64,000 nucleotides of DNA from Coprinus comatus. Lineage: Eukaryota; Basidiomycota; Agaricomycetes; Agaricales; Agaricaceae. Positions within the stretch are counted from its first letter, which is position 1. Every line of letters begins with the position of its first letter. Under the pieces are notes generated by a model. The model saw nothing but the letters and a program-made list of their open reading frames with translations, was not told the DNA's origin and made no database searches. The position numbers and the translations under genes are program-made. The stretch lies in contig JAWPGT010000019.1 in the NCBI GenBank assembly GCA_034638255.1, forward strand, positions 310,001 through 374,000, written 5' to 3'. Positions 1-32,822 of the stretch are shown here, in pieces.

Positions 1-762
1 GCAATGCTAGCATCACCAGCATGAAGTGGAACCCATTCTTCATATGTACCTGCAAAATTCCGGAGTATTAGCAGTGGACACTGGAGAACCAAGGATTACA
101 CCACACGTACTTACTGGCAATATCCACAACCGTAACTAAATAGTAATCTTGTGCATGTTCATCTGGAATTGGTGATGGTGATTGAGCATTCACATTAAGA
201 CCGTCATTGGTAGTTCTACTCCACACCAGATAGCTATCCACCATTCCTAGAAGCTGCTCCTTAAATCCTGTATTGCGCAGATGTGCTTGGTCATGTCTAT
301 TCCTTGTGTCTTTTCGAGGTAGTCTGTAATACAGATCAACATTAGAATAAAGACCAGGAGATGAAGTGAACGGTTTACCTCTCTTTTTGTAGATCTTCGG
401 TAATAGTTTGAAAAAGTTCACCCCCTGCATGACTGAGTGGCACTTGATCATTGCCATACATGAGATCATCAAGATCAACGTCCATTGCTTCATCGTGATA
501 ATTGCAATGATGCTCATTGAGGAAGTCAGTCCCTTCAACATTAGCTAATGCTTCCTACTTAGAGTATCAGAATATTAATTTTAAAAAAAGATATATGCGT
601 ACTTGCCTGAGCATAGAGGCCTTGATGGTGGAATACAACATGAGCCTTCTGCCTCTCAGTTCCCTTCATGATCTTGCCATATGATGGAATCGTTACACCT
701 TTGTGATGAGTGCTAGGATATATGCGTATTTTGCACATTAGTTTACCTTGTTTCGCACCCAT
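1..762 (-). pseudogene. KDZ transposase, N-terminal part (outer element), runs off the window
   Basis: This is a homologue of the transposase at 6902-10236. The start at 762 (MGAKQGKL) aligns with the inner start (MGKSGKKR). A shared basic segment follows, then an acidic stretch (AGGELFQTITEDLQKER against SGGEVIEVITQELNNN). Next comes the segment RHDQAHLRNTGFKEQ..MVDSYLVW, which aligns with the inner copy's DRILRQNQAFGVELGAMTDSYLEW. Introns can be placed near 542-600, 327-381 and 51-110; the first may use a GC donor. Only the N-terminal region, upstream of the catalytic core, lies in the window, so activity cannot be judged. KDZ transposases catalyse cut-and-paste DNA transposition and are expanded in basidiomycetes. 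I call it a pseudogene because its neighbour genes in the same element are broken; this part has no certain disabling change. Confidence 0.6.
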
Positions 763-2386
763 GGTAGAGATACCAGTGTTGCAAGAGTGTGAAAGTAGCG
801 TGTTCAACAAGCACATTGACACATCACATGCACTCAACCCCTTCCCCAATTTCTCTAAGTCCATTTCGCTAACCTACAACCACAAAAGTGGTTATATATT
901 AGTAAATGAGAGTAAGCCACCCACTAAGACATTCCTGTATGGTAATATAATTAGCCACCGAGTGTTGGATTAAATTAGGCATATTATAATGTAGTTCAAT
1001 AGTATTTATTGGTGATTAATAGTATACGGCGCCCAATGTACTTGTAATGCTTCGCATTCTCAGCATAGTAGGCCATTTATTGTGGGGTACACTAATAATA
1101 TTATCTTAAACCTTCTAATTAATCAAGACTTTCCATGTTTACTCTCCAGTTTTAGTGTCTTCTCAATATGTTTTAAATATTCATTATATGTTCAGGAATA
1201 TGTTAATGCAAACATTACAAAGTAAGGAGGAGCACATGAACCTCCTATATACAGTAAATGGCAGGCTTTTATAGAAACCTTTACAATGATACTAAGTAAT
1301 GGGGAATTGCCCTTAAGCTACATGTCCGAAATTCTATTCATGTAAACCACTTGACTAGAAGACCAAAAAATCAAAAGATGTTGCCACCTATGGCTACTAC
1401 TTGATCTACACCATATATATGTATCTGAAATATGTGTACATGAATGAAATAGATAGTTCTACAATATTTGTTAGCACCTGCAATACAAAGGTGAACTACA
1501 ATACAAGATTCAACTACGATATACATGTGGATTAAGTAGAAGTTGGGGCTTAAATATGTCATTTCTGAAATTTGCTCTACTTCCAAAGTGCCAGGGATGG
1601 ATCTGTAGAAAAATTTGAGGAGAGTATAAATATGAACTCAGTTTTTTAGTTGCTTGTCTGTGTCGTATAAGAAATGGGAAATTGTGATATCATCAATATT
1701 ATTATGGATTTAATAGTAACCCCATATCATCCTTTTTGCTCAAAGTAAATAAATATAACAAACTAAATAGAACATCTTGGTAGATATAAATTGTTTGTGA
1801 AGTATTAGCTGAAATACACAATCGAAAAATTGGCATTCAAAAGTCAAAAAGTCCTCTATTATATCTTTGTGACAACTTATCATTTACTCTCAGAAACAGT
1901 CTCATTCTATAGAAAATACCAGCAATAAATAGTCCCACTAACTTTTACAGTATAATACTGTCAGGCTGTGCTAAGGAATGCAAAGGCGGTATGTGAGCGG
2001 GAGAGGGTGGGATCACCTGCTTTACCAATATTTCCTAAATAAGTAATCTTCAATGTTTTTAATCAATGTGGGCGCCCGTCCAGAAATAAGTTCTTTTTAA
2101 CTCAATAGACATTCTGTGGCATTCAATACACTGTAAACTTCTATATATTTTACAAGGATATGTTATTTCTGGTGCAGTGGTCTGTCGACGACTCGACGAG
2201 TAGTACTAGTATATACTTTGAGTCTCAATTTGTACAAACAGCAGGTGGTCATCCTTTATTTTCTTTTACTCACATTATTCCGAGACTCTGGGACAGGTAT
2301 AGACAAACTTAAAAAATAAATAAAAAATTGTTGTGGCACAGACACAAGAAAAGATCATATATAAAAGTTTTACTACATGGACATTA
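763..2386. other. Non-coding interior of the outer KDZ element
   Basis: This is AT-rich sequence with no supportable gene. It separates the KDZ gene from the viroplasmin-module gene. The equivalent space in the inner element (10237-11602) is similar in length and also empty. Confidence 0.5.
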
Positions 2387-3406
2387 TTAAAACACCTCGG
2401 TGCTTTGGACTCGCATTTTCATATACAATTCAGTGAATATAGCAGCAGCTTGTTCTAGAGAGGAGCACTTAATCATTTGATCTACGAAAGCAATGCCTGC
2501 CAAGTGGGATGCAGTGGTACTATAGCCATCAGAAGTAATCAGCATCAACTGGAGTGAATAAAACAAAGATTAAAATGAACTCACAAGCCTCGGTAGACCC
2601 CAGATCTCAGTCCTCGAGCGACAACCTACCATGTGAGCTCAGTGGCTGCTGCATCCATGAGATGGGGATATTCCTCCTTCGGTTTGATACGTGGGCCCGT
2701 GCCAACATACTTGTTCATCCAATACACCTAACCAGCAGAATAGTGTTGCGCAAAACAGAGCTGTGCCTGGTAGAGGGATCCACTGTGCCAAAACATGGTG
2801 CCCTTATCTATGTCCGAAACATTCTTCCTAGCCATAAAGCTGTTCAAGTTGAGGTCCGGTGAGTGTCGTATCATTAGTTGTAGAAAAATACCACTCACAT
2901 TCCTTTATACATGCCTGGGTACCATCCAACTGTTACTACCCACCATCCAGTAGAGTTTGAAGGCTCTGGGGGAGAAGAATAGATGAAGATCTCAGGGTCT
3001 TTGGAAGGCGTGGAGGCCTGGGAGGTATCTTTGGAAGGCGTGGAGGCCTGTTTGAAAGATGTGTTGGAAGGTGTGGAAGCCTGGGAAACACTGGACCCTG
3101 ACTAGATATTGTTGATTGATGTTGACATGACATGGTTTGAATCAAGACTTAACACACCTCTTTGTTCATCTCCTGCGCCTCCTCTCAAAGAAATGATTCC
3201 AAGTCTTCTAAATCCTTCAAGTATTCATCAGAAATGTATGGCTTGGACATCGAGGGCCTGGGAGTGCCGGTTGCTTTCGAGACTCTTGCAGAGAGACAAG
3301 ACTTGGGAGTATCTGGAGAATGCTCCATTCGGTGGTAAGAGAAGTTTGGGGTGTCTTGAAAATTTGAAAACTCACTGTACATATATACCAAAATGTTAGA
3401 TGCCAT
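2387..3406 (-). pseudogene. Viroplasmin-module protein, degraded copy (outer element)
   Basis: Minus-strand exons can be recognised by comparison with the inner gene at 11603-18678. A module start reads WWVVTVGWYPGMYKGM (about 2885-2945), matching WWVVPVGPSPGIYLGK of the inner copy. A module end reads SLYQAQLCFAQHYSAG (about 2730-2780). A last exon reads AFVDQMIKCSSLEQAAAIF and stops at 2387. The pattern is that of the caulimovirus-type viroplasmin or RNase H1 N-terminal hybrid-binding domain (aromatic-V-V-x-V-G-x-x-P-G-I/M-Y). A TAG at 2728-2730 interrupts the frame unless it lies in an unrecognised intron. The 5' part (SKPYISDEYLKDLEDLESFL near 3190-3260) is only weakly alignable, so the start is unknown. 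It lies divergently to the GWP gene starting at 3629, as in the inner element. Confidence 0.55.
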
Positions 3407-4499
3407 TTCTGTTAAACCGCAGCTCTTCTCAACTTCTCAAATACGGATTCACAAATGCAGGATCCTCAAGAAGACAACTGTTTTTGGGTATATGTAAAAA
3501 GAAGATCCCCTTCTCGGTAAGTCAATCTATGGTCACTTGGGATAGTTGCAGTGGGCTGATTATTGGTTACATTGCAATACAATACTTAGATTTATTCATT
3601 CTTCACACATTCTCTGTATACCTAGCCTATGGACGCAGATGCCAATACTCCCCATAATACTCAATCCCCTCCAGAACAAACTGCTCCTCATGATACTCAA
3701 TCCCCACCAGAATGTACTGCTCCTCATGTTACTCAAACCCCACCAGAATCTACTACTCCTCTTACAACTCTATCTGGTACAGGATGTTCTCCAACAGTTC
3801 TATCTGGTCCCGTTGACTCACAGCGGCCAGACACCAACTCAGAACTCCTGGGTGATGAAACTTTTGCATTACAAAACCCGTGGAAGAAAACCCAACCTAT
3901 ATGCAAATGCAAGTATGTCAAAAAATTGGATGCTTAAAAACAAGCTGCAACTATATGCAAAAAGCGAAAGCAAGAGATTGAAGCTGTGTATGGTCAAGAA
4001 ATTCAAGATTTACAACAACAAACCTCTGATCGAATCCAAGAAATTTCACAGAAATACAACAAAGCCCAGAACACAACTCAAGGCATTGTGTATTCTCTGT
4101 CTTCAATTGTGGATGAGTGAGAACTTAGTCTATTCAATGCTGAAGTTCATGATAAGCATATAAAGCTCAATGACAGTAAGTAATTCATCTATGATTCGGC
4201 TAGTCAACTACTAACAAGTACCATAGTACCAAATTTAGGAGTTGGGGAATGCTATAGTCTTTTTCAGCTATGTGATATGGTTAGGGAGGAGATGAAAAAA
4301 AGGAATGATGCCAGTATTGAGTTGCCAGAGGAGGAGAAACGCTGACTCTGGCAGCAATTGCAAGAATATTGTGATGTTAAAAAAAAGGGGGCTCGAGGGA
4401 ACAACAAGAGTGCTACACAGGATGTATACCATGTTACTGAGTGGGTGCACAAAGAGGTGCATATTTTCTTCCCATACCTCAAAGCAAAAGCTAACTAAT

Positions 4500-5124
4500 T
4501 GTTACGAGTCCACCCAAACCACCGGCCTGTACCACCACCACCGAGGAAGACTTGTTCGCCATCTTCCCCGAACTCATTCCCAATGACGACACCATGGACG
4601 ACTCCGCCTGACATACCATTCCCCGGTGACATCACTATGACATCGCTATGACCTAACGTCGAACCAAGTATGAGACTCCACTTATGCTTAGAAGTCTGCA
4701 TTTCCCCAGCTCCAGTATTAGTTATCTGTTTCGTCATTTTACTCCTGTTGACTAATCTTTCATTGTATATGGAGTAAATAGTCCCCGACCCCGATGTCTC
4801 ACCTACTCCTGTTGACAGTTCTAGCATTGTGTATGGAGTAGATTATAAAGCAATGACGAGTATTTAGGATATACGTAGTTAGTAGCTATTAATAGGTACA
4901 TTCCTAGAATAGTATAAATACTCGCTGTATTAGACGATTAAAGCCCCAAGCTTTAATCTCTTCTGTTGTAGCCCTTATACATCTCTGTCTCCATACCTCT
5001 CGGTCACTAGGTTGAAAGGCCTTGAGATTGCAGCAGAGTGTTTATTGATCGCACATTCCTACACGACTGCACTCTAGCGTTTAAGTTCCAGGAGTGTTCA
5101 GCTTAACGGTTCGTGGTCATAACA
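4500..5124 (+). repeat. Solo LTR, family A, in the outer GWP gene
   Basis: This 625-bp unit begins TGTTACGAGTCC and ends GGTCATAACA. It is flanked by a perfect 5-bp duplication, CTAAT (4495-4499 and 5125-5129). It carries a TATA-like AGTATAAATACT near 4911 in plus orientation. A second copy in reverse orientation lies at 24008-24642. No internal retroelement sequence remains, so it is a solo LTR left by LTR-LTR recombination. Confidence 0.9.
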
Positions 5125-5618
5125 CTAATAGTGTCATTGTCATGGTTATTACTTGATTCATGAAGCTTAACTACCTTTGCATTTGTACTGGGGCAACTTC
5201 AGCTTTAACAATGGGAGTGTTTTGCAAGCAGTTTCAAGCAAGGTATGTTCCATAAATTTTATTGTCATACATAACATTAAAATTATACTACTGTAGGTGA
5301 AATGATAGTACAGAATAGGGCAACTCTTCAGAAAGAGTGTGCTGCAATGATCAGCGAAGGACTTCATGCGTATTATTTTCTTTTTTATACATTCATAACA
5401 TAATGTTCTAATATAATGTTTAAATTCTATAGAGTCAGTGACTGGGATTAAAGAAATCTCTATGAACTATAAGAGCTATCACAAAATCGTAGCTCGTTAT
5501 TGGGTTCAGATCATTGGGTGGCCTCCATATGTTCCACTTGCTAACCCATTGAGTTTATCAGTCAAGGACTTGCAGAGACTCTGGGATGCGCTCTTATCCA
5601 AGACGTGCATCTGGGAAC

Positions 5619-5933
5619 CACCTATGGTTCCCACACATGGCCTCTAGTTAGAGGCGTTGCCAGGTGCCATTGATACCTCTAACTAGAGGCTATCCATGGT
5701 TACCCGTTCCCTGCAATAGCCCTCCATTCCTGCAATATCTTAGCCCATACCTCCGCCCAATTCCTGCAGGGAATTCCGAGGAGTCTTGGTTGGTATCCAT
5801 GTTCGGACTGTGGACTCTGGTCCGAAGTACTATTATTATCTGACATCCCTGTTCATCGGAATGCACTATTTATATGAGTAACATATCGTTCTTGAACCTA
5901 GTTTATTTTTGTATCAATTTAATTAAATGTTCT
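5619..5933 (+). repeat. Left terminal inverted repeat of the inner KDZ element
   Basis: About 315 bp are nearly identical to the reverse complement of 30270-30594. There are two 14-bp subterminal palindrome-like motifs: CCTCTAGTTAGAGG (5641-5654) and its reverse complement CCTCTAACTAGAGG (5676-5689). Identity is highest in the first 220 bp and fades inward. Confidence 0.88.
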
Positions 5934-6289
5934 CCCTTCTTTTCTGGTTACCCATATGTTTCTTTTTGTTTTCTTCTTTTTGTTTTTGTTTTTCAGGCAT
6001 GCGTATGACACATCCATAATCTTCTTGGCTATGTAATGTATCATATATTATATCAACTTGTTATCTATGGTGCTGTGTCTCTAGTTACCGATATGTCATG
6101 CTTCCACTTCAAAAGACATATGTTTTCTTTTAATAATCAAGTATACATATATATATATTACATGAGCTCAAGCCTCAAAGTTGTTGCTGCTTCCGTTGTG
6201 TGTCCAAAATTCAGGCTAAATAAGATTTTATTGTAGTAAATATAATATAGGGTACATATGTGAAGTCATGAGGATCCAACCTATAGAGT

Positions 6290-6700
6290 CAAAGAAGTTG
6301 GAGAGGACACGTCAAGCAAGAGAAAAGGAAGGACGCGTCAAGCACAGTGGGGGAGGGGAGGGGAGGATGCATCAAGCAAAGAGAGAGGGGAGGACACATC
6401 AAGCACAGTGGGAGAGGGGAGGACGTGTCAAGCAAAGAGAGAGGGGAGGACGAGAGGGGAGGACGTGTCAAGCAAGAGAAAAGGAAGGATGCGTCAAGCA
6501 AGAGAAAGAGGTCACCTCAAGCAGGGGAAAAGGAGAGGATACATTTAATACGGGAAAGAGGAGGATATATCAAGCATGGGAGAGGGTAGGTGTCAGGATG
6601 TGTTGGGGTCGAGAGAGGGGATGCATTGAGTATGGGAGAAGATGGGATGCATCAAGCAGGGGAAGATGCGTCGAACAGGGGAAGATGCATCACAATCCCA
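6290..6700 (+). repeat. Purine-rich minisatellite next to the left TIR
   Basis: These are irregular tandem units of about 25-35 bp built on AGGACGTGTCAAGCA followed by a G/A-rich spacer such as AAGAGAGAGGGG. Both strands are open over several hundred bases only because of the repeat structure, so I do not call a protein here. The rest of 5934-6901 holds nothing I recognise. Confidence 0.75.
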
Positions 6701-6901
6701 ACTGTTGAAGCCAAAGAAAATATATTCTCAATATGTTAAGATAATTATTAATACCATCAATTAGGTTACAGGTACCGCTAAGGTACCATTTTCTGAGAGC
6801 ACCTCACCCAATATGCCAGTAAATCAGCCTCACGTCACACCAACATAACTAAATTTGATATATGCAACTATACATGTACAGAAGTAGACAGAAGCATATG
6901 T

Positions 6902-9900
6902 TTAATGATCATCATCTGCCACAGACAAAACCAATTCCAGATTGGCAGATAGTTCTTCGTCCTCTTCTTCATCCTCAGCTTCCTCTTGTGCCTCTACCTC
7001 ATCTACAGTAAATGGTATTTCAACCCTATCAGTGACAACTCTAGCATTTGAGAGCATTTCAGTCGCCTTCCCTCCAATGTGATTCATTGCTTTACCCCTC
7101 TTTATACCAGTCTCTGCAAGCAATTTTTGTAAACAAATGATATGATTACGGTTCACAGATTCAAAATGCATGCACCGCAGGAAAATTTGGTGGGATATAG
7201 CTGGGGAAGTGATTGCCAATGAGCTTTCCATCTGACTCAGGAACATTTCTTCATCTTCTATGAACGTTAATAATCTTGCCACCTCCACTCGAATACAGAT
7301 GATTTCCTCTCGAGCTCAGGCCATCTTGAAGTGTTGGTCCATGAGAGAGCGCGCTGCAGGACGTGCCCAGGGTTTTTGACGCACATCCTGAGTAGAATCT
7401 GACAGGATGTTGAATTCAGAGAGAAAGGCGTACTCTACAACATCCCCCCATTTCAAAGGAGGCCTGTCAGGTACAACCTTCTTTGCAAGTCGGTTGTACT
7501 CATTCAGGGCATTGTGAATAGCACTAGAGCACCGTTGGAGTGCCTTCCCAATATACTGTCTCAAGTTGTAGCCTAGAAGAAAATCATCAGCTTTTTTTAA
7601 AAACAAATGATGGCACATAACTAACCTGAGCCGGATTTATTAATTTTACCAAGTTCAAACAACCACTAGACAATAAGTTGTTCCAGCTTGCAGAGACTCT
7701 TCCAATAGTCCTGGTGAGCAATTAAACGAGTCACCCTTTCCCAATTTCCATCCCCAGTGACCCATTGGTTTTCAATGTTGAGTTTGGTCTCCAGCTCGTG
7801 GATGTGACCAAGTGCCATTGCTTCAAGTTCCTTGCTATGAGCACATTGTCTAGCAAGTTGAGCAGTGGAGGTGGCAGAAGAAGCAGGATACGTAGCATCG
7901 ACATCAGCATTTCGAAGCTCCCGAATTTTTTTTCTGTTAAGGAAATGAGCGATTAAATCAATTCCACATAGAAGATCTGCTTACTGTGCATTACTTAGAC
8001 ATTGTAGTTGATGCAGGTACTCAATCTCATCCGTATCATGTTCTGGCTCTTTGGTTCCACTTATCAAAAACTCGCGTTCTTCCTCTAACCATAGCTTAAA
8101 GTCTTCTTCACTCTGTATACCTAGATCTTTTTTGGTTTGTTCATAGACTCATTCATGTTTGAGTATTTCAGTGGCGCGATTATAATTTGTGACAAGGAAG
8201 CGACCTTGAAAATAGTCAATAATAGATCATAGATAAATTATCAGAAACTTACTAAGACCCTGATATGTATCAGTTTCATTGAGATGTAGGAAGAAATTCA
8301 CAATCTTTTGTTGGCGATGAAATCGGCTGCAATGCCGGGTAGAGGCCACAAGATCATTTGATCGGGAAAATAAGCATTCTGCTCCTTCAAGGTCACTCAG
8401 GCCAAGTCCTTCAACATAGGTTGCAAGGTAGGAGAGCTGGCATAAGCGATTGTGTGCATGTCCATGGAAGGAACCAACCAAGGATGTGTATTCAAGTTCC
8501 TTTGCCCATTTGCCGAGGGCACTACGTTGCAAGGTTTTTGCATACCTGCATCCGATATCATATCCAATGCCAATTTTTGAGCCATAGGCATCCATTAGTT
8601 TATCGGAAACTGCAAGGGGGTATTGCGACCTGATGTTTTATTAGCCCATGCTCCAAGTTATCAGGATAGAAAGAAAGCACCCTTCTCCCCCTTTTATCAT
8701 GTCTGCTACTAAAAGAACCATTCCATGTCAACATAATGCGACAAATATTCCATTTTCCTCAAAGATCCCCCATGCCTTTGATGTTTTCTCCTCTGACATA
8801 TTCTTCCATCTTTCACTACAAGGCATATCATCAGATGAAACGGTCTACCAAGATAAGATAAAGATCAGAACCAACAATATAAAATATTTCGGTCTAAACA
8901 CATACCTCCGTAGGTCTTTTTTTAAGAGATTCCTTCCATTTGTCTACCTCTTCTCTCCTGATATATAGATCACCTCTTGTGACCCACCTATTATCCTCCA
9001 GTTCATTGACCTGCGGTACCATATACACATCACCATTTTTATCTTCACCAAGGTCTGACAATGGATCACGTTTTGGTACGCATTTCAGTGAGTCATTACT
9101 GTCCATGGTCACAAGTATCTTGAATTTTTGTTCCAGTTCTTGCTCCAGCGCATAGGTGCACGAAGGACATGCATGTGTAAGTCTCCATGATGGCATATCA
9201 CGGAATAGTGCAGCTTGGACACGTAGCTCCGCTTCTTCTAGGATTGATAGATATACATCGAAACAGGTGGAAACTTGTTTATATGTATGTTGTTTGTATG
9301 GTACCTAAATATAAATATGAAGTGAATAAATATAAAATAACAAGACATATAAAATTATACAACATACCTTATGAATGTAACAAAGCCCTTCCACAAAATT
9401 CTGAATTGTGAAACACGCACACTTTAGGGACATCACACGATATATCTCAAGAGTCCGAATAGTTACTGCAATATGCGGCTTCAATGGGGAGCAAGGAATT
9501 AGGCCGTAATCTACCAAGATGGATACAAGGCTACGGCTACCATTGCCGATATCAACTTGCTTCTGGTACAATGCTAAAAGGTGTATTAGAATATGAAGCA
9601 CATAGAAAGACACACTTACAAAACATATCAATGACAATAATATTGTGATACCCAGGGTTTGGGTTAGTACCTGATTCCGGAAACCCAGCATTTTCAAAAC
9701 CATCAGCCCCCACACGCCAACTCCACTCTAGATAGGAGTCGGTCATGGCTCCAAGTTCCACCCCAAATGCTTGATTCTGCCTTAGGATTCGGTCCTTTCG
9801 ACTATGTGTATCTTTTCGTTTTCTATGGAGGCCCAAAAGCTGAGAAGTGACATTTCAAGTTATATTATTTGACTTTACCTGTTGTTGTTCAGTTCCTGTG

Positions 9901-10236
9901 TAATCACTTCTATCACTTCTCCACCAGAATAATCCCTCTCGCCAGCAAGAACGGCAGTAATATCATAGTAGCTATCGTTAGCATCGTCCCACTGATCTTG
10001 ATCTTCATTCCAAACTACCATCACAACCATGATCAGCACATATATTACAATTGACGGAAAGACAGAATACCTTCAAGACCACTAGCACAAGCTTCTGTGG
10101 CTCTGTATTTTTCAGCTCGCATCTTCTGTCTACTGGTCCCAGAAATAATTCTGCCACGATCTGGTCCAATAGAGGTATTAGAGTACACATGTGTTTGAAG
10201 GGATTTGATACTTCTCTTTTTTCCAGACTTGCCCAT
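6902..10236 (-). pseudogene. KDZ transposase (inner element), nearly full length with a nonsense codon
   Basis: This is a multi-exon gene read from 10236 (MGKSGKKRSIK) to a stop at 6902. After an acidic N-terminus come the segments typical of basidiomycete CxC-associated KDZ transposases: GAMTDSYLEW; IPCSPLKPHIAVTIRTLEIYR; RLTHACPSCTYALEQELEQKF; VTMDSNDSLK; LCRHGMVLLVADMIKGGE; IGIGYDIGCRY; LVGSFHGHAHNRLCQLSYLA; GLGLSDLEGAECLFSRSN; and the C-terminal YNLRQYIGKALQRCSSAIHN..PPLKWGDVVEYAF. It ends in a Glu-rich tail. The transposase is expected to cut and paste its own element. Two faults are visible: a TGA at 8149-8151 (one C-to-T change from CGA), and a join near 9840-9890 that needs a one-base shift to connect the acidic exon to LLGLHRKRKDT. 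It lies 970 bp inside the left TIR and reads toward that end. Confidence 0.82.
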
Positions 10237-11602
10237 TGTCAATAGAATGCGCAGTGCGCCTGTGCTGGCAAAGTCAACAACGTGTAATGGAATCAACAAA
10301 CAAGCCACCTTGTTTGTTGTTGCTTGCATTGATATCAATGATGTCACTTGCCAAAGCACGAAATTGACAAGTTATCTATTGTAAAAATGTACTGAAATAT
10401 GAGGACACATAGCTTAGTAGAATTGGTATGTAGTAGGTGTTGTGATTAAATATATAATATGAACCTCTTAGGATATTTGCACTGATGATAATCCAGTAGA
10501 ATATCATGGTTTAATATGTTAGGAAAAACTCTCTCTGGAGTCCCGACACAGACCTTGTAGTTAAAGCACACTCAGATAGCTTATAACATGATAGATATTC
10601 TTAGAGTAACATTAGGGTACTTGTGGAATAGTTTTGATCTAACATGAACAGTTTTCATAAGGTTTCGTGCTATGTTGCTATATGTTATAGAATTCAGACA
10701 TACATTGACATTGAGCCTGTACCTCCTGGTTTAGAGGGGTGACAACAAAGACAGCAAAAATAAGTTAATAGTATGATACCAGTCAAATATATGATTGTCA
10801 ACAAGTAATATATGTATGAGCTTGGATTCTATTCAATGTTCTTGTTGTAATACTATTGAACATACTTGAGGAATTGGGCTACTCAAAACACTATAAATAT
10901 TATTATTTTCTTTTACTCAAATAATCATCGGAAAATATACTGATGATAGATATTTTTATATGTTTGGCTGAATCTTAAGCTCCAAAATTATTGGTAGGAT
11001 GAGTATTTACACTTCTACTGGATTTTGAATATATTTTGGTATTGTTTGATATTTGATTATATACGATCAGGTGAACGTTTGGACCTAAAGACTTGTAATG
11101 TATAGTATATAGATGTTCCCTATTCAAATATAATTTTTATTAAGCAATATACCAAACAAGGGACATGGAACAAAGATGTCGACTAAAGTCTAAACTTTTG
11201 ATATATAATTTGATTCTTTGTTGTATTTTGCAAGATTTGTCATGATATATATACTATCTAGCTCAGGTAATGTCTTCAAATAGATCCGATATCCATAAGT
11301 GCTTGCATTGAGCTATAGTGAACTATGTCTGGTGAGGGGCAGGCAGGCGGCGGGATTCCTGCCTTGCGCTGATTAACCATATTTGGAACAAATTAACAAT
11401 CTCGGATCTGATCAATCATTCCTTTAATCAAATCTGATTGGTATCCAACAATGGTACTAACAAGGTCACAAATTATGTATATTGCATATAAAAAGCGGAA
11501 AAGAGGGACAAGAAAGGAGACACTAGATTATTATGAGATATAACAAAAGTCCCAAGAACAACAAGTACTATGATAAAACAACAAGAAACACCCTCAACAT
11601 CC
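10237..11602. other. Non-coding interior of the inner KDZ element
   Basis: This AT-rich segment lies between the transposase start and the end of the viroplasmin-module gene. No gene, RNA or repeat is recognised here. Confidence 0.5.
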
Positions 11603-22100: not shown

Positions 22101-22443
22101 TATGTCAACTGATATCCAACTCCCTGTCGTCCCTGACATCCCTTCTGTTTCCAGTCCCACGGATGCTTCTGATGCATCTCTTGCTACTGCTTTGGGTGCA
22201 TTCTCCTTTGACAATAACACTGCTGGCTTCTCGTCTTACATGCCAGCTTCTAGTCCATCCCCATTTCTTACAACACCCTCATATATGGCCCCTTCTTATG
22301 TCATGCCTCCATCACCATTTCTTGCTCCCAGTCCTGTCTCATATGGACCTCACAGCCATCCGAGTCAGTCTTATCTGTCTCCTCATGCATCTTACACGTC
22401 TCCTCATGTATCTTACACGTCTCCTCATGTATCTTACACATCT

Positions 22444-22682
22444 TGTTAAAATAAGAGCGTAGTGTGTTATACATGGGTAGGTACGACTCTGGACTTACTG
22501 AGGGTGGTGGTTGTTAGTATAGAAGGAACTGAAGTATATAATGCAATAGTACAAACTTATATACATAACTACAGTGGTCCGTGCGAGAATATACTAGGTC
22601 ACATGATAGGGATCATGAAGATATATTCGTCAAGCGTGATGCCATATGAGAATGTCATTGTAGAACTAATAATAGTTCAACA
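22444..22682 (-). repeat. Copia 3' LTR
   Basis: A 239-bp repeat, TG..CA bounded, identical to 29471-29709 except at one position. It is the 3' LTR because coding runs right to left. Confidence 0.94.
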
Positions 22683-24007
22683 CTCCCCTGAATATGAACA
22701 TGGCAGCTAAGAAGCGCCCTATGTTGGGACCATATTATTTGAGCACTTGGCAGCGCTATATGTGGGATTAGAAAACTCCAACCCGTAATAGTTATCACGG
22801 AAGTATTCAAACTTCACACGTCCGAGATTCTTCATGAGAAGATCAGCAGGGTTCTCAGTGCCTGGGATAAAATAGAGCTGAACCTTCTTTTCATCAATTA
22901 CTTGACGAATGAAGTGGAAAATGATATCTATGTGTTTTGATCTCTTTTCGACAGCAGGATTTTGCACGATAAAGAGAGAGCCCATATTGTCTCCACAAAT
23001 ATCCATTGGTTCATTGTTGTGTAAACCAAGTTCAGTCATTAGGCTTCTGATCCAGATTGACTGACAGCTACAATCGGAAATAGCCATGTACTCAGCCTCT
23101 GTGGACGATAATGCAATAGTCTTCTGTGATCGACTAACCCAGGCTACCGGGCAGGATGCAACAGTAGACAGATAACCAGTTTGGGATCTTCGAGTAGAAG
23201 GATCACTAGCCCAATCAGAATCACTGTAAGCAATGAAACCCTCATTACCAGAACCATCAAGCGTCATTCGGTATTCCCGAGTCGCTAATAGGTATCTACA
23301 AATATAGAGAGCTCTACGTAGGTGTTCTTCTGTAGGGTTATGAGAATGTTGACTAAGCTTAGTCACAGCGAACGAAATGTCCGGATGCGTGCCAATAGCA
23401 ATGTACAACAGTGATCTGATCACCTGTTGGTACCTAGAACGGATGGAGGAGTTGATCGGCTTGTCGTTAGGAACTGGATAGTACCCTTCTGGCAGCGGAG
23501 TTCGCGCCAGTTTGGTATCACAGTCAGAACCAGTGATTTTAAATCTTTCCAGGATCTTTTCAAGATAAGCACATTGATCAAGATAGATCTTTCGATTAGC
23601 TCGATCTCTCCTTATGTGCATACCGAGAAATTCTTTGACTTCTCCAAGGTTGCGGCATTCCCACTTTTTCATGAACTCTCCTTTAAGCTTTTTAAGCAGG
23701 GCGGAGTCATTTCCCATGAAAAGTACGTCATCAACATACACGACAGCAATGACAAACTTGCCATCTTTTCAACGATATATATAAATACCAGCATCGGATT
23801 CACATCGCTTGAAGCCTAGTTTGTCCATGGAAGATGCCATCTCCTTCCACCAGGCCAAGCCGGCTTGTTTAAGGCCGTACAATGCATGTCATAACCTCCA
23901 CACCATATGTTCCTTGCCCTTAAGTTTGAAACCTTCGGGTTGATCCATATAGATTTCCTCATCCAGTTTGCCATAGAGATATGCTGTCTTTACATCGACA
24001 GACTCAA

Positions 24008-24642
24008 TGTTATGACCACGAACCGTTAAGCTGAACACTCCTGGAACTTAAACGCTAGAGTGCAGTCGTGTAGGAACGTGCGATCAATAAACACTCTGCT
24101 GCAATCTCAAGGCCTTTCAACCTAGTGACCGAGAGGTATGGAGACAGAGATGTATAAGGGCTACAACAGAAGAGATTAAAGCTTGAGGCTTTAATCGTCT
24201 ACTACATCGAGTATTTATACTATTCTAGGGATGTACCTAATAATAGCTACTAACTAATTATAACCTAATACTCGTCATCGCTTTATAATCTACTCCATAC
24301 ACAATGCTAGAACTGTCAACAGGAGTAGGTGAGACATCGGGGTCGGGGACTATTTACTCCATATACAATGAAAGATTAGTCAACAGGAGTAAAATGACGA
24401 AACAGATAACTAATACTGGAGCTGGGGAAATGTATACTTCTAAGCATAAGTGGAGTCTCATACTTAGTTCGATGTTAGGTCATAACGATGTCATAGTGAT
24501 GTCACTGTGATGTCACCGGGGAATGGTATGTCAAGCGGAGTCGTCCATGGTGTCATCATTGGGAATGAGTTCGGGGAAGATGGCGAACAAGTCTTCCTCG
24601 GTGGTGGTGGTACGGGCCGGTGGTTTGGGTGGACTCGTAACA
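24008..24642 (-). repeat. Solo LTR, family A, inside the copia RT
   Basis: A 635-bp reverse-oriented copy of the LTR at 4500-5124, flanked by the 5-bp duplication CTCAA (24003-24007 and 24643-24647). Removing it with one CTCAA restores the RT frame ..LEDWDIESVDVKTAYLYG. The TATA-like motif reads on the minus strand. Confidence 0.92.
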
Positions 24643-27600
24643 CTCAATGTCCCAGTCTTCAAGGGTGGCTAACCCAAGCAGGATTCGAGCAGACTCATAT
24701 CGTACTACTGGAGAGAATAATTCATCAAAATCAATGCCCTTGACTTGAGAAAATCCTTTAGCAACTAGTCTAGCACGTTTGCGACCGTCACTCTTTTCAT
24801 TAAAGACCCATCTATTTTTTACGGTTTTCCTTCCTTCCCGAAGTTTCACCAACTCATAAACTTGCCGCTTTTTCAGCGCATCTAGTTCTTTGAGACAAGC
24901 TTTGTGCCAGTGTTTACGTTCCTCCAGATTCAATTTTACAAGATCACGGAATTGCTCAGGAACTGTAGTTGAACTCACTTTTGCCAATAAAAAGTTCATC
25001 AATTCTAACCCCCCTTCCTTAGTAATCCGTTGAATCTTACAATCTGCGTCTTCTTCCATTGCGTCAGGTTGTTGTTCCCTCGCATATTGCCGTGAGGCAT
25101 CCTCATGTTGTCTGCGTATTTCATCGCGACGATCTCGGACTTCCTCGGGCGAAATAGGATGTGGATCTGCTTTAGGGCGATCTTGTTGATTTCGGATTCT
25201 GAAATCGTGACCACGGAGACGAACTCTCCCCTGAGGTGGTAGAGGTTCATTGTGATTATAGTCTTGTAGGATCTCAGACGGATGTGTTCTCTCCCCATAA
25301 ACATTACCTTCTCTAAATGGAACAAACTTTTCTCGGCCAGAACGGCGAGGTAAAGGTTCAACTGGTCTAGGTGGTCGTTCAGGTGATGGAGAAATGGGAC
25401 GGGTGGAGTCAGATTGAGGAGCAGGGCTCGGACTCGGGTGATGAATGGGTGATCCGGGATCAGCGTATGATAACGCGTCATCATCATCTTCATCGGTGAC
25501 TTCCTCAACTGTTGTTTTCCTAGGAGCGGGTTTGCTCGGACCGGGAACAGGAGGTTTTTGAGAAGTAGATGGTCCGGGAATCGGACCTTGCGGTCTAGGC
25601 GTAGGAGCTCTATCACTGTCGTCTTGTCGAGATGTGTCCATAGGATCATCAGGATAAAGATCAGGTGTAGTATCCTCGTCATCTTCATCAGATGCCAGAG
25701 GAGGAGGATTTATTTTGGGGTTTTTTGTAGAACCGGAGTCCTTACGTTTTTCATGATCTGGCTTGCATTTGGGATACCAGCCCTCATCGAAAATAGCTGT
25801 TTTTGCAGTATAAATAACATTTCCCTTCTGATGTCACATAAATGTATAGTTTGCGCCATTGTATCCAAGGAAGATCATTATTTCAGATCTGGGTGACAAT
25901 TTATCATCACGCGATTCCTTAGGAATGAAAACGTAAGCTGCACAGCCAAACACATGAAGACCAGATAGATCTGGCTTCTTCCCTGTTACCATTTCTGTGG
26001 GAGTCTTCCATTCAAGATGTTTGATGGGAGTTCGATTATAACAATGAACTGCCGTGTTAAGGGCAAATTCCCACCAAGAATCCGGTAAGCATGCAGTAAG
26101 TCGCATGGCTTGCGCCTTTTCCTGAAGTGTGCGGTTCAGTCTTTCTGCTCTACCGTTCTGCTGGTGAATATGTGGTGCAGACGTCTCATGTACTATCCCT
26201 TTTGAATGAAGGAATTCCTCAAATTGTTTAGAGACATATTCGCCACCATTGTCTGTCCGGATACACTTAATCGTTTTACTGAATTGTTTTTCCTCGAAGG
26301 CACAAAATCTTTCAAGTGCTGCAAAGGCATCAGATTTGGCTCGTAAGAGAAGGATCCAGGCATGGCTAGAATAGTCATCATAGAACATCATTGCCCACTT
26401 GTACTTGTGATACGAGGCAACGGGGAATTCTAGAAGATCACTGTGGATCAATTCTAAAAATGACTTCGCTCGTGTCGAAGAAGGATGATGTGCCTCATCG
26501 GACATTTTGCCTTGAGCACAACCATCACAAATTTGACGAGAGATAGGAATGTCAAACTCAGGTACTTTTTCTGAGTGTTTTGGAAGTTGTCGCAATATTT
26601 CCTTTCCAGGATGCGCCAATCGATGGTGCCAAAGATCATAAATAGATAATTTAGATGCGCAATAAGATAGCACCTGATTTGCAGTATAATGACGCACAAT
26701 CCGGGTATGAATGTGGTGGAGTGCATCTTCTAACTCTTTGAACACAGGTATGCGTGTAGCATGCATAAATAATTTTCCGTTTGAACGAAATATGTTGGTT
26801 CGCTTTAAATTAGACTCACTCCTCATTCCTTGCAGCCATAAGGCGCCAGGTGAAATGATTCTAGTGGAGAGAGATGCAATATAATAGACCGGATACAGTG
26901 GAGTTGTTCGTGTAACTCCGTCTACTTCGTGTTGAAAGAGGACTTTCCCACGGCCAGTAATGCCAATGAGTTTGTCGTTAGCAGTTCTAACATTGCCAAA
27001 AACTCCTTCCTCTAACTCGATAAAGTCGCTTATATGCTGGGTGCAATTAAAGCTAGCGCCTGAATCAAGGAGCCAAGTAGCAGACTCTCTAGCATAATTA
27101 GGTTTTTCTTTATCTTCACAGAAGTTGCATAAGCATTCAAGATCTTTTACCAGTTCATCACCACTTTCAGGATCTCTTAAATATTTTGCCAGTAAGACAA
27201 AAGGATCGCATAAAGAAACGGGAGAATTCATCGCATTTACAGAAACAGGAGAGATTACATCAGCAGTAGATACATGAGAACTAAATGTCCGACTATAGTC
27301 TGGCAGTCCATTATGGTGCACTAGAACATTGGGTCTGTTGGAGCAATTTGTTCGTCTCCCCATTTGGCGGGGGCATCTCTGGATATCCCATTTAGTAAGG
27401 AAGAAATCTTGAGAAAAGAAAGGAACGTACTCATTGTACCATCCATCATCGACCTCGTAATCACCATCAGCATCGAAGTCCGGATCATTCATGTAGGCAT
27501 CAGCCTCGGAGATCGCTTCAGGGACATCAGAAGGAGGGACATAAGAAGGAGACTTTGATCGACACGTGGGGGACCCAGGTGTAGAAACCGAAGATGAATC

Positions 27601-27936
27601 AACTTCCTCTTCAGGAAGGATATGTGACACCATCGCGTCAAGCGATAGTGGAGGTGATGGAGGACAGGGTTCAACCACGCCGAAGCCGAGGCGAGCACCC
27701 ATCTTCTCGAAGACCTCTGTCTTCTTTTTCTGATACCGGGTACGACTGACCAGGTGCCCAGCAGGGGGAAGAAGAGTAGCACGAGGAGCAGGAGGCTCAA
27801 CACCATGCACGACGACTTCATCTGCAGCCTTTTTCAAGGCCACTGCCCTAAGGCAGGGATCAGTTGTCTTCATCCTCTCGACGAGAGAACGAGTTTTGGA
27901 AGGTTTGTTAGTGGGAGTCGTGAAAGACTCCAAGAC

Positions 27937-28254
27937 TGTTAGGTTTTTCCCAGATATCTCCTTATCTTATCCATCTTTCCTAATCACTCCACTTATCTTA
28001 TCCTGATGTTCTGGACTCTTTCATAATGTTCTTTTCCCTTATTATGTTACTTACATATTCCCTTTGTGTGCTGGCAAGGGTCCTTATTGTTCTCCCCTTT
28101 TGGTTGTTCTTTGTTCTGGTAGATATATAAGTCCCTCATGTCTTAGCCAAACAATCCAATCAATTCCCTTCTTTCTGTGTCTGTGTCTGTGTCTGAGCTT
28201 AACTCTCTCTCAACTTCACTCTCATTCTCAACATCACTCTCTACCATTCTGACA
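27937..28254 (+). repeat. Solo LTR, family B, between copia Gag and Pol
   Basis: A 318-bp unit, TGTTAGGTTTTT..CATTCTGACA, flanked by the 5-bp duplication AAGAC (27932-27936 and 28255-28259). A TATA-like GATATATAAGTCC lies near 28121 on the plus strand. It falsely extends the Gag reading frame with an acidic tail. Removal fuses Gag to Pol in frame. Confidence 0.88.
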
Positions 28255-29470
28255 AAGACAGCGGGTGACAAAATCATATCCACGTTACCGGCATCCTCTT
28301 CGGCATTGTTTGCCTTATTGCCTCCACGTTTTCCGCGTCGATGCTTCTTCTTTTTATCCTTATCCCCCCCAGAAGCATCACCGGAACCGGAGTTCTGGGT
28401 TTGATTTGGTTTAGAACCAGATGACTTCTGTTGTTGCTGTTGTTGGGGCTGCTGAGAAGCGCCACTGGAGGGTTTAGAATAGGGCTTTGCACCCTTGTAG
28501 TTTTTAATGCCGGTAGAAGTGGCACGAGAAGCAGAAGCAGCTCCACGGGAATCCCGCCAAGCACCCATAATTGCATCGGAGATGATTTGAACCGTTAGGT
28601 TCGATAAGGAGTTACCATATTGGACAAGGAGGGCAGCACGAGTGGCACTCCATTGAGGAGGAATGCGTGTCATTAACATCAATGCACGGAGGATTCCGGG
28701 GACGTTAATTGGGGGCGAGGCCTGCTCTAACTGCGTGAAATAGTTTCGGAAAGTGGAGATCTCCTTGGAGGGATCTGTCACACCAGATAACCGAAAAGAA
28801 TCTGCAGAAGCATACAACTCATAGGCTGCACCTGCCGAAAATGTGCCGTAAACTCGTCTCAGGTGTGTCCAGAGACCGTCAGAGGTAGTTTCACCATGCC
28901 GGAGCATGTCATCGCTCAATCGGGAATTTAACATCCCAAGGGCAAATGCCTCACAATTATCGAACTTTCAAATTTCATCGACGTTCGTGGGGGGTACCAT
29001 AGTGGTATTGGCAGTTGTGGGGGAACCACCGACAGCTGCAGGCCTTGTGGCGCTGCCATCGATCATTCTCGCTACACACCATCCATCCATGTGGATCATG
29101 TTAGCAATGGACAAAACACGTGCTTCCCACACTTGGTAGTTAGCAGTGCCAGTAAGGACTGGGATCAAGGGGATCAAGGCGGCCATGAATAATGTTTGGA
29201 GATAGAAATCTACAACAAAACATGTGTCAGAACTATGAACTAAAGCTGCACTACATGCGCTATGTTCTACAGAGCTATGTGCTGCCCGTCTAACTGAGTA
29301 TGGTAAGGGGTTGCATAGAGAACACTGAGTGGGTCGACGTCTCGAGCGAGCGGAACTCGGACTTCCCTCACAGGTGAATCCAGCTTCACCCTCAAGCTCT
29401 GAGCTGCACGATGAGTAGTACTCATCAAGTGCACGTCGAGAGTCGTACAGGCTAACCGGGGCCCATAACC

Positions 29471-29709
29471 TGTTAAAATAAGAGCGTAGTGTGTTATACA
29501 TGGGTAGGTACGACTCTGGACTTACTGAGGGTGGTGGTTGTTAGTATAGAAGGAACTGAAGTATATAATGCAATAGTACAAACTTATATACATAACTACA
29601 GTGGTCCGTGCGAGAATATACTAGGTCACATGATAGGGATCATGAAGATATATTCATCAAGCGTGATGCCATATGAGAATGTCATTGTAGAACTAATAAT
29701 AGTTCAACA
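29471..29709 (-). repeat. Copia 5' LTR
   Basis: 239 bp, TG..CA bounded, and 238/239 identical to 22444-22682. The minus-strand Gag start (29186) lies about 285 bp downstream. Confidence 0.94.
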
Positions 29710-29915
29710 CATCTCCTCATGCATCTTACACGTCGACCCATGCACCTTACACACCTCCTCTCGCACCCTTCATGTCACCACAAATGCCTCAGTCTTATGT
29801 GTTCCCTCCTACTCAGCCTTCTCCTCACGTGGCATCTTCCTCTCACGCCTCATCCTCTTTGGAGCGACGTAGCACACGTCTTGCTGGTCGCCATGTTCGC
29901 ATTAATTTTGATTAA

Positions 29916-30269
29916 TTCCTGGATGGGAGTGATATGTATATAAAGTTGACATTTGTTTTATTCATCAATGTGTTCAAATATCTTGTTGTAGTGTAATTTC
30001 ACTTAATACAGTATCATTATCTTGGCAAACTTGGACTTGAGTATGATCAATTAATGGAAAAACATGTGTTAAAAGAAAACATACAACTGAGCAGTGGAAA
30101 CATGATATATTGTTAACTGGAGACGGACACGTCACTATAGATAACAAGTCTGTATAATCTATATTGTTATGACACATTAACACAACTGGAAGTCTGAAGA
30201 AGTCACGAATTGTGGTCTACATGCTTGAAAAAAAAGATATGCGCATATGTGCAACCCAAAAAGAAGCTA
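29916..30269. other. Non-coding end segment of the inner KDZ element
   Basis: This stretch between the GWP stop codon and the right TIR shows no gene. Confidence 0.5.
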
Positions 30270-30594
30270 GAACATTTGATTAAATCAATACCAAAAATAA
30301 ACCAGGCTCGAGAATGAGTATGTGTTAATCGTACATATTATAAATAGAGCATTCCGATGGACAGGGACATCAGATAATAATAGTACATTGGACCAGACTC
30401 TGGAGCACGAACATGGATACCAACCGAGACTCCTCGGAATTCCCTGCAGGAATTGGGCGGAGGTATGGGCTAAGATATTGCAGGAACGGAGGGCTATTGC
30501 AGGGAACGGGTAACCGCGGATAGCCTCTAGTTAGAGGTATCAATGGCACCTGGCAACGCCTCTAACTAGAGGCCATGTGTGGGAACCATAGGTG
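30270..30594 (-). repeat. Right terminal inverted repeat of the inner KDZ element
   Basis: The inverse of 5619-5933, about 325 bp including small indels. It has the same two subterminal 14-bp motifs (30524-30537 and 30559-30572). Confidence 0.88.
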
Positions 30595-31324
30595 CTGGGA
30601 ACAGTTATCTCAAGAAGCTCTTACCGAATTCCTCAGAGCTGACATAAACAATAATGAAGGAGGTATACCAGAGGCGACTCGACAGAAGGAGAGGTCAGAC
30701 AAAGGTAAAAAAAGGTCAAGAAAATCAAGTACAAATCAAGCCTCTTCATCAAAGCACCAGAAGAAAGCCAAAGGTGCTGCTCAACAACTCCCCCCTCATG
30801 TTTCCCCCGAATTTGTGGACTCTGAGTGCGAGTCTGAAGATTCAGATTTGGAGCCAGTACCAAACAACTCTATTCCCTTCAATATGTCTAGTACACAACT
30901 CTATAGTTTTACTCCTTCTCAACTCCATGTGTTTGATGCTCCGACCAATTCACCCATCGCTACTGATCCTGCCATCACTACTGACTCCGAGTCTACTCAA
31001 CTCCATGCCCAAAGTTCCCCAGATTTAGTGCAGGCTGATACTGCTCTGCCCATCACTCTCTCCGAGTTGACTCAACTCCCAGAGGCTCCTGCTCTACCTA
31101 TCACCACTAGTTCCAATTCGACTCAACTCCCTTCACAATCACCCACCGTTGTAGTCGAATCTGAGGCTCCTGCATCTCTGCCTATCACTGCTAGCTCCAA
31201 TTTGACTCAACATAGTCCTACTTCTAGGCAAAGGGAAAAGGAGAAATGTAATCAGGTCCCGGAGGTCCAAGGGGAGAGAAAAAGCTCACGTCTTAATGGG
31301 CGATGTGTTGAGGTGTACACATAG

Positions 31325-32612
31325 TATTTATAGTGATTTCAGTTGTATATATTACATGAGTTGTAGGGAGAATATCTTGGACATTCAATAAACATTTGTA
31401 CCCCCCTCCATATGTTCAAGTTAGTTCCGGAGTACCTCCCGAGTTGGATATATTCAAGTGAATTATTGGAATGTTGCTGTGGCATTGATTTGACATATAT
31501 TCAAGCACACACAGAGACATATTAGAAGTCATTTAACGCCGAAATGAATGGAGAATCATAAGCTATATTTATAAGTTAAACCACGGAAATGAATTCGAAT
31601 GCGAATCCCGAATCACTCTGGAATATTGCTGTCAACAGTAGTTGGACAGGAGTTATCACTCACCATGCATTGGGGTCCTTGAACAGTGTTGGTTCTAAGG
31701 AATGAAGCAACGACTTTGGTGAAGTTACAGGTATACTGAATTGAGTATTGAGAATGAACTATTAGAATGAAAAGAAAATGTACTCAGGCCAGTTTGAACA
31801 ATTCTGTAGTGGTATTGAATCCCTTTGAGGTCGAAGGTTGAGTTGCCGTTGGTTGGATACCAATTAAGAAGAGATGAGAAGGCTGTCAAGGTATAACATG
31901 TTCTGATGACAGGTATCCCGCGATCTGGTGTATCTGATTTCAACTATGGTGCATATGCATTCTGAACTTTGAAGTGCCTGTTATAGATAACAGCGAGCAC
32001 GAGGATATGGGCAGAGCAGTCTATATGTACATATTCTAACATAGCATATATAGGACTTGAGACTTACTGTAGTCTGTAGAGAGTCAAGTTTTAACATTTG
32101 GATTACTAATAACTAACACATGGTTTTTGTGTTAAGTTCCAATTAATATATCTGTATTGCGACATATGAGTGGTACAGAAAGGAGGTAAGGGGAAAAAAA
32201 GACATACCGATGGCTGAGCAACACTGTCGAGAGTCGAAATAATATATCAGGAGAGGAAATGATGGAAACATGAGGTGTTGATGCGCCATCATCTATCACT
32301 GACATATAATCCCAGTGTATGATCCTGCTCTTCATCATATCAGTGTGATGAGACACCTGACAAGTGACTGGATAAGGATAAAGATCAAACAATCTTATCC
32401 AGCTGATAACAAGATAAGAAACACTGATATTTGGTACTTGGTCTATTATCTACTGTAGATAGTGTATTGAAGGCTGAAAGTTGATTCAGAGTTGAGCGCT
32501 TTTTGCATGATTATCACAGGACTGTAAAATAGCTGAAATTGACACTAACTAGGCTCGGAGACAGACCTTGTCTCCCAGCCTAACTAGTGAGGCCGTGTGG
32601 GAACCACAGGTG
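31325..32612. other. Non-coding right end of the outer KDZ element
   Basis: No gene is recognised. The last 90 bases contain two CTAACTAG-type motifs (near 32546 and 32580) separated by GGCTCGGAGACAGACC, then the terminal GTGTGGGAACCACAGGTG. This recalls the subterminal layout of the inner TIR. Confidence 0.6.
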
Positions 32613-32822
32613 CTAAGCAGTGTGTTGGAAAGACGAGCATCCAAGTATCAGATCTTCAGTTTGGAAACCAAATTAGTTCTCTCCGTTGGTGTTACCCTTG
32701 CATTGATAGATGTACTTAATCTTGCAAAAATGCGATCCAAAACCGCAGTAAGAATTCAGTGGACTGGAAAACAGCTTTGCAACATCTTGCGGAAAAGAGA
32801 TGCTGGCAAAATCAACGATTGA
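32613..32822 (+). pseudogene. ORF remnant at the outer insertion site, unknown
   Basis: An open frame reads from the end of the outer element (LSSVLERRASKYQIF) through SVGVTLALIDVLNLAKMRSK to LRKRDAGKIND and a stop at 32822. I do not recognise the family. If real, it is the 3' part of the gene the outer element entered; the 5' part would lie left of the window next to another CTAAGCAG. Confidence 0.3.

Follow-up and report, generated by a model that had tools for sequence, protein, structure and literature searches.

Three-Gene KDZ Transposons in Coprinus comatus Carrying a Tandem Hybrid-Binding-Domain Gene and an Orphan GWP Gene

Introduction

KDZ transposons have been described in several fungi. 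In Cryptococcus neoformans, KDZ1, KDZ2 and KDZ3 encode CxC1 together with the KDZ transposase, are 9.2–11 kb long, and have terminal inverted repeats (TIRs) of 139–241 bp and target site duplications (TSDs) of 8 bp (KDZ1) or 4–8 bp (KDZ2 and KDZ3) (PMC12810828). Kyakuja and Zisupton transposons that carry TET/JBP are described from Agaricomycetes (Kojima 2025, PMC12730594), and KDZ elements have also been reported in mating-type loci (PMC12510652). In Pleurotus ostreatus, the long allele of HELPO1.3 contains capD (labelled tegument-like), capE (viroplasmin) and capF (predicted nuclease/transposase), a trio that its authors read as Helitron gene capture and did not call KDZ in the excerpted text (PMC4289320, 2014). 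In this study, we analysed a window of 64,000 bases (bases 310001–374000 of contig C19) from the Coprinus comatus genome (35.68 Mb in 134 contigs), in which two KDZ transposons lie one inside the other. Each carries a transposase gene, a viroplasmin-module gene encoding hybrid-binding domains (HBDs), and a third gene called GWP, and the same trio was followed through the genome.

Results

Linkage of the Three Genes across the Genome

The pattern of the TIR start, searched with at most two mismatches, gave 51 matches against 13 for the reversed control. The matches were paired bracket-wise, which yielded 14 pairs less than 40 kb apart, and 13 of the 14 contained all three genes in identical order and strands. 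The remaining pair (C3:901264–923749), formed by imperfect motif matches, contained no KDZ, viroplasmin-module or GWP match. TET/JBP had 17 matches in the genome and none in the 14 pairs.

Linkage was also measured from the genes themselves, at a distance of 15 kb, among 49 KDZ, 31 GWP and 26 viroplasmin-module loci (the last including the two window copies). The KDZ loci were clustered by hand from 86 exon matches of PF18758. The mapping of the Pfam viroplasmin domain was weak (7 matches), and two spliced proteins were added as queries; neither of them recovered the two copies in the window, and these were located directly in the window sequence. Twenty-four of the 31 GWP loci lay 5′ of a KDZ gene on the opposite strand (23 by script, plus the outer window copy, which the script had paired with the nested inner KDZ). 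The viroplasmin-module gene lay 5′ of a KDZ gene on the same strand at 23 of 26 loci. As a control, 21 of 150 scored copia RVT_2 domains (229 candidates) were within 15 kb of a KDZ gene, and they fell into the four classes of side and strand as 5, 8, 5 and 3. Because the TIR pairs enclose the trio, and both extra genes were strongly biased where copia had no bias of side or strand, the two extra genes belong to the transposon. Several loci were near-copies of one another (C3, C80 and C121; C1, C8 and C44), so the loci are not independent events.

A preliminary description of the window had claimed that the transposon includes the two extra genes as components of its own. As contrary outcomes it had named that these genes be mostly unlinked to KDZ or lie outside the TIRs. 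Neither outcome was seen in this genome, and the claim is supported within it.

The three viroplasmin-module loci without a linked KDZ gene were at C43 (with GWP adjoining), C1:498728 and C1:1330639. The second of these, with an HBD and a catalytic motif, reads by eye as the host RNase H1. At C1:1330639 (minus strand) there is a solo HBD frame of about 56 amino acids spliced by eye (MPKITKSKFYAVAVGR...); it adjoins PIF1-helicase-like frames, and its intron is offset by a few codons from the RNase H1 intron position. Single TIR ends were found at C43:23013, C44:185606, C60:122002 and C69:43015; they share the subterminal sequence CCACCTGTCCAT, which suggests further copies that were decayed or cut by the assembly.

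Termini, Target Site Duplications and Age of the Elements

The TIRs begin CACCTRTGGTTCCCACA and are 0.16–1.07 kb long as aligned (164–1071 columns, first high-scoring segment pair). Ten of the 13 gene-bearing pairs, those with fetched ends, were tested for TSDs (C40, C75 and C79 were left out). An 8-bp TSD was present in all ten, perfect in nine and 7/8 in C57. At a length of 8, 79 of 80 positions matched, against 21–28% at lengths of 5–7 and 9–11. TIR identity was at least 99.5% in six of the ten copies (C3, C57, C69, C80, C121 and C29), which indicates that several copies are young and that the family was recently active. The shorter copies measured 11.5–13.8 kb. The young copy C121:25528–37042 has 11,515 bases and TIRs with 99.7% identity over 937 bases. 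The three-gene copy C8:941769–954368 has the 8-bp TSD CTTTATTG, and about 34 bases found at the extremity of its left end are missing from the right end.

The Two Nested Copies in the Window

Exact TIR starts (CACCTRTGG in both elements) were found by motif search at window bases 5619 (+), 30594 (−) and 32612 (−), and a fourth at C19:305298 (+), 4703 bases (4.7 kb) to the left of window base 1. Pairing of these starts gives an inner element at 5619–30594 and an outer element at C19:305298–342612, both flanked by perfect 8-bp TSDs. Their limits are as follows.

1..32612, minus strand: outer KDZ element, right part; TIRs at C19:305296–306284 and 341585–342614, TSD CTAAGCAG on both sides
32613..32620, unstranded: right TSD of the outer element, 8 bp, CTAAGCAG
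5611..5618, unstranded: left TSD of the inner element, 8 bp, CTGGGAAC; right copy at 30595–30602
5619..30594, minus strand: inner KDZ element, 24976 bases including three nested elements; exact TIR starts CACCTATGGTTCCCACA and TSD
5619..5970, plus strand: inner TIR, left arm, 87% identity to the right arm over 367 columns
30228..30594, minus strand: inner TIR, right arm

The inner TIR pair continues for a further 91 columns at 76% identity. The outer TIRs are 76% identical over about 1071 columns, and this lower identity fits the outer copy being older. The inner element was inserted in an exon of the outer GWP gene, which is cut at 5618/30595. When the empty site was rebuilt with one copy of the TSD, a single open frame included the GWP motif and continued without interruption as far as the terminal RKSSRLNG.

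The order KDZ (−), viroplasmin module (−) and GWP (+), proposed in the preliminary description for both copies, was found again in the inner and outer elements. When the copies C121, C8, inner and outer were compared, the same three blocks were present in 4/4, with identities of about 28–76% for KDZ, 25–43% for GWP and 27–45% for the viroplasmin module (reverse-frame matches and one dispersed repeat were excluded from this comparison). The outer viroplasmin module aligned to the other copies in its third repeat only.

The KDZ Transposase

6902..10236, minus strand: inner KDZ transposase (putative CxC1-like cluster and KDZ domain), predicted span from the preliminary description
1..762, minus strand: outer KDZ transposase, 5′ part, the remainder lying left of the window; end 762 from the same description

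The inner KDZ domain (8227–8637) matched PF18758 with an E-value of 1.3e-40. At 9305–9727 there were matches to CxC1 (E 0.0072) and CxC2 (E 0.023), both under their cut-offs. The matches of the outer KDZ domain were at C19:308213–308509 and 309222–309503, left of the window. Since the left end of the outer element is at C19:305298, beyond the window, most of the outer transposase is beyond it too. Thus, the outer KDZ gene placed earlier at 1–762 is the 5′ part of the transposase and not a whole gene; its similarity to the other copies extends to about window base 515, and the end at 762 is provisional.

Purine-rich tandem repeats occupy 6300–6675, between the inner left TIR and the end of the transposase.

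The Viroplasmin-Module Gene

The gene models are predictions, spliced by hand at GT–AG sites under the guidance of similarity between copies.

18212..18678, minus strand: inner exon 1, HBD repeat 1, first half
17594..18148, minus strand: inner exon 2, second half of repeat 1 and first half of repeat 2
17233..17538, minus strand: inner exon 3, second half of repeat 2 and first half of repeat 3
11603..11729, minus strand: inner exon 4, second half of repeat 3; a reverse transcriptase/tyrosine-recombinase-like element lies in the preceding intron
2387..3406, minus strand: outer viroplasmin-module gene, decayed, third repeat similar to C121 and C8; span from the preliminary description

The outer limits of the re-derived inner coding exons, 11603 and 18678, coincide with the span given earlier. 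The predicted proteins have 397 (C121), 328 (C8) and 484 (inner) amino acids in open frames, and each of these three modelled copies has three HBD repeats. In the outer gene, two frames matched the repeat profile (E 1.3e-6 and 0.023), and a stop was read by eye within the third repeat.

PF01693 matched the spliced C121 protein with an E-value of 4.6e-5, above the cut-off. A profile of the nine repeats matched, among PDB sequences, the RNase H1 chains 3BSU (which we take to be human; E 4.1e-7), 6VRD (8.2e-6) and 1QHK (presumably yeast; 0.0034). The profile also matched designed PPR and solenoid proteins (2.6e-5 to 8.6e-4), among which no single stretch passes alone. A catalytic RNase H domain was not found in the spliced C121 protein at E-values up to 1, and a homologue search with the viroplasmin-module protein returned none among 2671 candidates.

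In each of the nine repeats a phase-2 intron falls within the equivalent codon; in repeat 1 this is a Trp codon. The host RNase H1 reads, by eye, GTATATCTAACATG, intron, GTCTGAATGT, with the same split of the Trp codon. In the simplest account, which we consider probable, an amino-terminal exon pair of RNase H1 was captured and then triplicated to form the middle gene; both the direction and the source of this capture are presumed.

The GWP Gene

3854..4174, plus strand: outer GWP amino-terminal exon; C19:313854–314174 matches the C121 GWP (E 1.2e-6)
5417..5618, plus strand: outer GWP exon, left piece with the GWP match, cut by the inner element; its frame is continuous with 30603–31324 at the empty site
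30603..31324, plus strand: outer GWP exon, right piece, ending ERKSSRLNGRCVEVYT-stop
18973..20416, plus strand: inner GWP gene; homology-bounded frames 18973–19314, 19383–19586, 19630–19824 and 19976–20416, with approximate exon ends
29703..29915, plus strand: inner GWP carboxy-terminal tail, ending ERRSTRLAGRHVRINFD-stop, beyond the copia insertion

The predicted GWP proteins of C121 and C8 have 626 and 645 amino acids. Across the copies, a charged amino-terminal part is followed by a conserved RTGA..RGHxND region, a YxVxLVGWP region and RKxRxDK, and the models end in a low-complexity tail with a carboxy-terminal RRSxRLNG-type motif. GWP had no match in Pfam. In the database searches, which scored the 7994 and 7991 candidates with the most words in common, a single relative (27% identity) from Hymenopellis radicata was found, and a query made from an alignment added none among the candidates scored. 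A scan of viral contigs gave two pattern matches and no relative, and the GWP profile reached only E 0.096 and 0.21 at best against PDB sequences. By these sequence comparisons, GWP belongs to an orphan family. For the relative (P0001), AlphaFold gave a weak model (mean pLDDT 65, pTM 0.31), in which the amino-terminal part is predicted to be helical.

Selection and Transposase Tree

dN/dS was calculated by the Nei–Gojobori method; most dS values were above 1, which makes them unreliable, and the ratios can be read as evidence of constraint but not as an exact measure of its strength. Between diverged copies, dN/dS was 0.19–0.25 for the viroplasmin module (four comparisons), 0.22 and 0.14 for GWP (two comparisons, one more being saturated in dS) and 0.04–0.09 for the KDZ core (three comparisons, one more being saturated in dS). 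These codon comparisons show long-term purifying selection on both accessory genes.

The tree was built from 31 KDZ domains of this genome only, with 18 other KDZ loci left out. A clade marked by GYDIGC/FHGHAHN (28 rows, support 100/100) included every one of the 23 rows linked to accessory genes; none fell in the other clade, marked by SYDIWCQY (3 rows). A single gain of the accessory genes was not demonstrated: the accessory label has to change 5 times across the 31 rows, a count raised in part because contig ends hide neighbours.

Other Elements in the Window

20494..22102, plus strand: Tc1/mariner-type element nested within the tail of the inner GWP gene; DDE_3 and HTH_Tnp_Tc3_2 domains, transposase frame 20789–21862, inverted ends of 216 bp
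22437..29710, minus strand: nested copia long terminal repeat (LTR) retrotransposon in the inner GWP tail; LTRs 22437–22683 and 29464–29710, 98%; rve and RVT_2

A further element (11730–17232, minus strand) lies in the intron before exon 4 of the inner viroplasmin-module gene. By eye, its frame 13354–15657 reads as reverse transcriptase/RNase H and its frame 12057–13673 as a tyrosine recombinase, in a DIRS-like gene order; the element had no significant Pfam match. No match was found between window 12057–18759 and phage DNA, or in an Rfam scan of window 1–34000. A dispersed repeat of about 635 bases is present in three copies, at 4500–5124 in the outer GWP gene, 24008–24642 in the copia element and C19:302887–303521 to the left of the outer element; two of them are 99.5% identical.

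Discussion

We are highly confident of the anatomy, though not by the same token of any function: a KDZ cut-and-paste transposon with TIRs, 8-bp TSDs and a fixed three-gene layout. The element has the KDZ transposase, with a putative CxC1-like cluster, at one end; the HBD protein gene lies upstream on the same strand, and GWP occupies the far end and is read from the other strand.

Several observations weigh against this anatomy or against the roles considered below. Seven of the 31 GWP loci are outside the expected position: the GWP gene at C60 lies 3′ of a KDZ gene on the same strand, and C16, C43, C23, C13, C27 and C44 have no KDZ gene within 15 kb, some of which may be cut off by contig ends. 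The KDZ–GWP pairs at C12, C14 and C96 had no adjoining viroplasmin-module match in the Pfam and two spliced-protein searches. Five of the 28 KDZ domains in the GYDIGC/FHGHAHN clade have no accessory match; C17, C68 and C103 are about 2–6 kb from a contig end on the accessory side, and C130 and C89 are not. The divergent copy C11 has one weak repeat only (FVVVSGLKPGVYSRW, E 0.045 in a small search), located and oriented as expected. The Trp of repeat 1 is absent from repeats 2 and 3, and it is therefore uncertain that every domain binds nucleic acid. Near-identical copies gave dN/dS of 0.64–0.72 (three comparisons; one KDZ pair had too few changes), which is little sign of selection after insertion. 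Finally, a Foldseek search of PDB with the model of the GWP relative returned nothing below E 0.59.

The middle gene of C11 (C11:211501–217500) also has long proline/alanine-rich repeats (PAPAVAAPPEPAVHAPPEP-like) ahead of its single HBD-like motif.

That the genes sit near KDZ only through repeats piling up in the same regions is an idea to which we give hardly any credence. Nesting is real in the window, and about one in seven copia domains (21 of 150) are also near a KDZ gene; however, those domains are spread over all side and strand classes, whereas GWP and the viroplasmin module each fall overwhelmingly into one, and nearly every TIR pair encloses the complete trio. It is very improbable, too, that the unit is gene cargo captured by a Helitron, as the similar Pleurotus trio, with capD, capE and capF in one long Helitron allele, was interpreted in print (PMC4289320). 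The unit here has TIRs and 8-bp TSDs of its own at its limits, whereas Helitrons make no TSDs according to the excerpted text of that paper, in which TIR elements are also noted on the flanks of capD and capF; Helitron ends were not searched for in our sequences.

As to function, KDZ-family transposases cut at TIRs, and the transposase here would do the same. The kilobase-long inverted TIRs, if read through, would yield hairpin RNA, and the nuclease-free HBD array might coat RNA:DNA hybrids or double-stranded RNA from the element and so blunt silencing. Piwi-domain matches on seven contigs and many matches to RNA-dependent RNA polymerase make RNA silencing plausible in this genome, and the viroplasmin of cauliflower mosaic virus suppresses silencing. 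That the HBD protein acts as a silencing suppressor is, in our opinion, possible, if somewhat short of an even chance; we are equally tentative about GWP as a DNA- or chromatin-binding partner. The full account, in which a tandem-HBD array from a captured and triplicated RNase H1 exon pair sequesters the transposon's own TIR hairpin RNA or R-loops and GWP is the chromatin-side partner, we consider rather unlikely as a whole. If it were true, KDZ elements would have a second anti-silencing strategy beside TET/JBP, directed at RNA instead of methylated DNA. A real possibility, though one we would not count on and rank just behind silencing suppression, is that the accessory proteins are transposition machinery, with GWP binding the TIRs or bridging the ends and the HBD protein acting on an R-loop or strand intermediate. 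Second proteins are known in other large DNA transposons (TNPA of En/Spm, MURB of MuDR). The strict co-retention with the transposase, the purifying selection on both accessory genes, the long TIRs, at which a protein that binds the ends might be required, and the charged amino-terminal part and RRSxRLNG-type tail of GWP all suit such a role. However, Pfam, the PDB profile and Foldseek recognised no DNA-binding domain in GWP, and known HBDs bind RNA-containing duplexes, for which cut-and-paste transposition has no obvious need.

The elements belong with the KDZ superfamily by their PF18758 domain, TIRs and TSDs. Compared by description, they differ from KDZ1–KDZ3 of Cryptococcus, for which no accessory genes are named in the excerpted text (PMC12810828). 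The TET/JBP-carrying KDZ transposons also have an added gene, one that is thought to counter host silencing; however, that gene is a dioxygenase (PMC12730594, in the part excerpted), and the 14 TIR pairs here have no TET/JBP match. The two Laccaria Kyakuja families of the same excerpts have a 7-bp TSD and no TIRs, in contrast to the 8-bp TSD and TIRs found here, and CA..TG ends are common to both. Zisupton has TIRs and 8-bp TSDs in common with our elements, but its excerpted description includes no HBD or GWP genes (PMC12730594); the terms viroplasmin, RNase H and ribonuclease H1 do not occur in the main text of that paper. Among the matches listed in the open-licence literature, no paper describes this three-gene family. 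The present elements add a defined three-gene architecture to KDZ, which the texts cited here describe mainly by the transposase and TET/JBP cargo, and give the orphan GWP family a genomic home.

The eukaryotic RNase H1 has the HBD in common with the middle gene and, in the host gene read by eye, the position of the phase-2 intron. It differs in that the modelled transposon copies have three HBDs and that no catalytic RNase H domain was detected in the C121 protein. The engineered R-loop sensor RHINO likewise has three tandem RNase H1 HBDs and no nuclease, as far as its excerpted description goes, but RHINO is a laboratory construct (PMC10639055), whereas the transposon protein is natural and diverged. 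A natural tandem hybrid-binding-domain protein has been kept by a mobile element over deep divergence. Should it protect the transposon's RNA or R-loops, a single purified protein would be enough to test whether a eukaryotic DNA transposon counters host defence at the RNA level. In the Pleurotus trio (PC15 scaffold 1, region 3742549–3754728), the gene number, the size, the repeats and the central viroplasmin gene fit a three-gene KDZ insertion. Judged by its published description, this "Helitron gene capture" may be the same kind of transposon, unrecognised, and our elements offer a testable re-reading of it.

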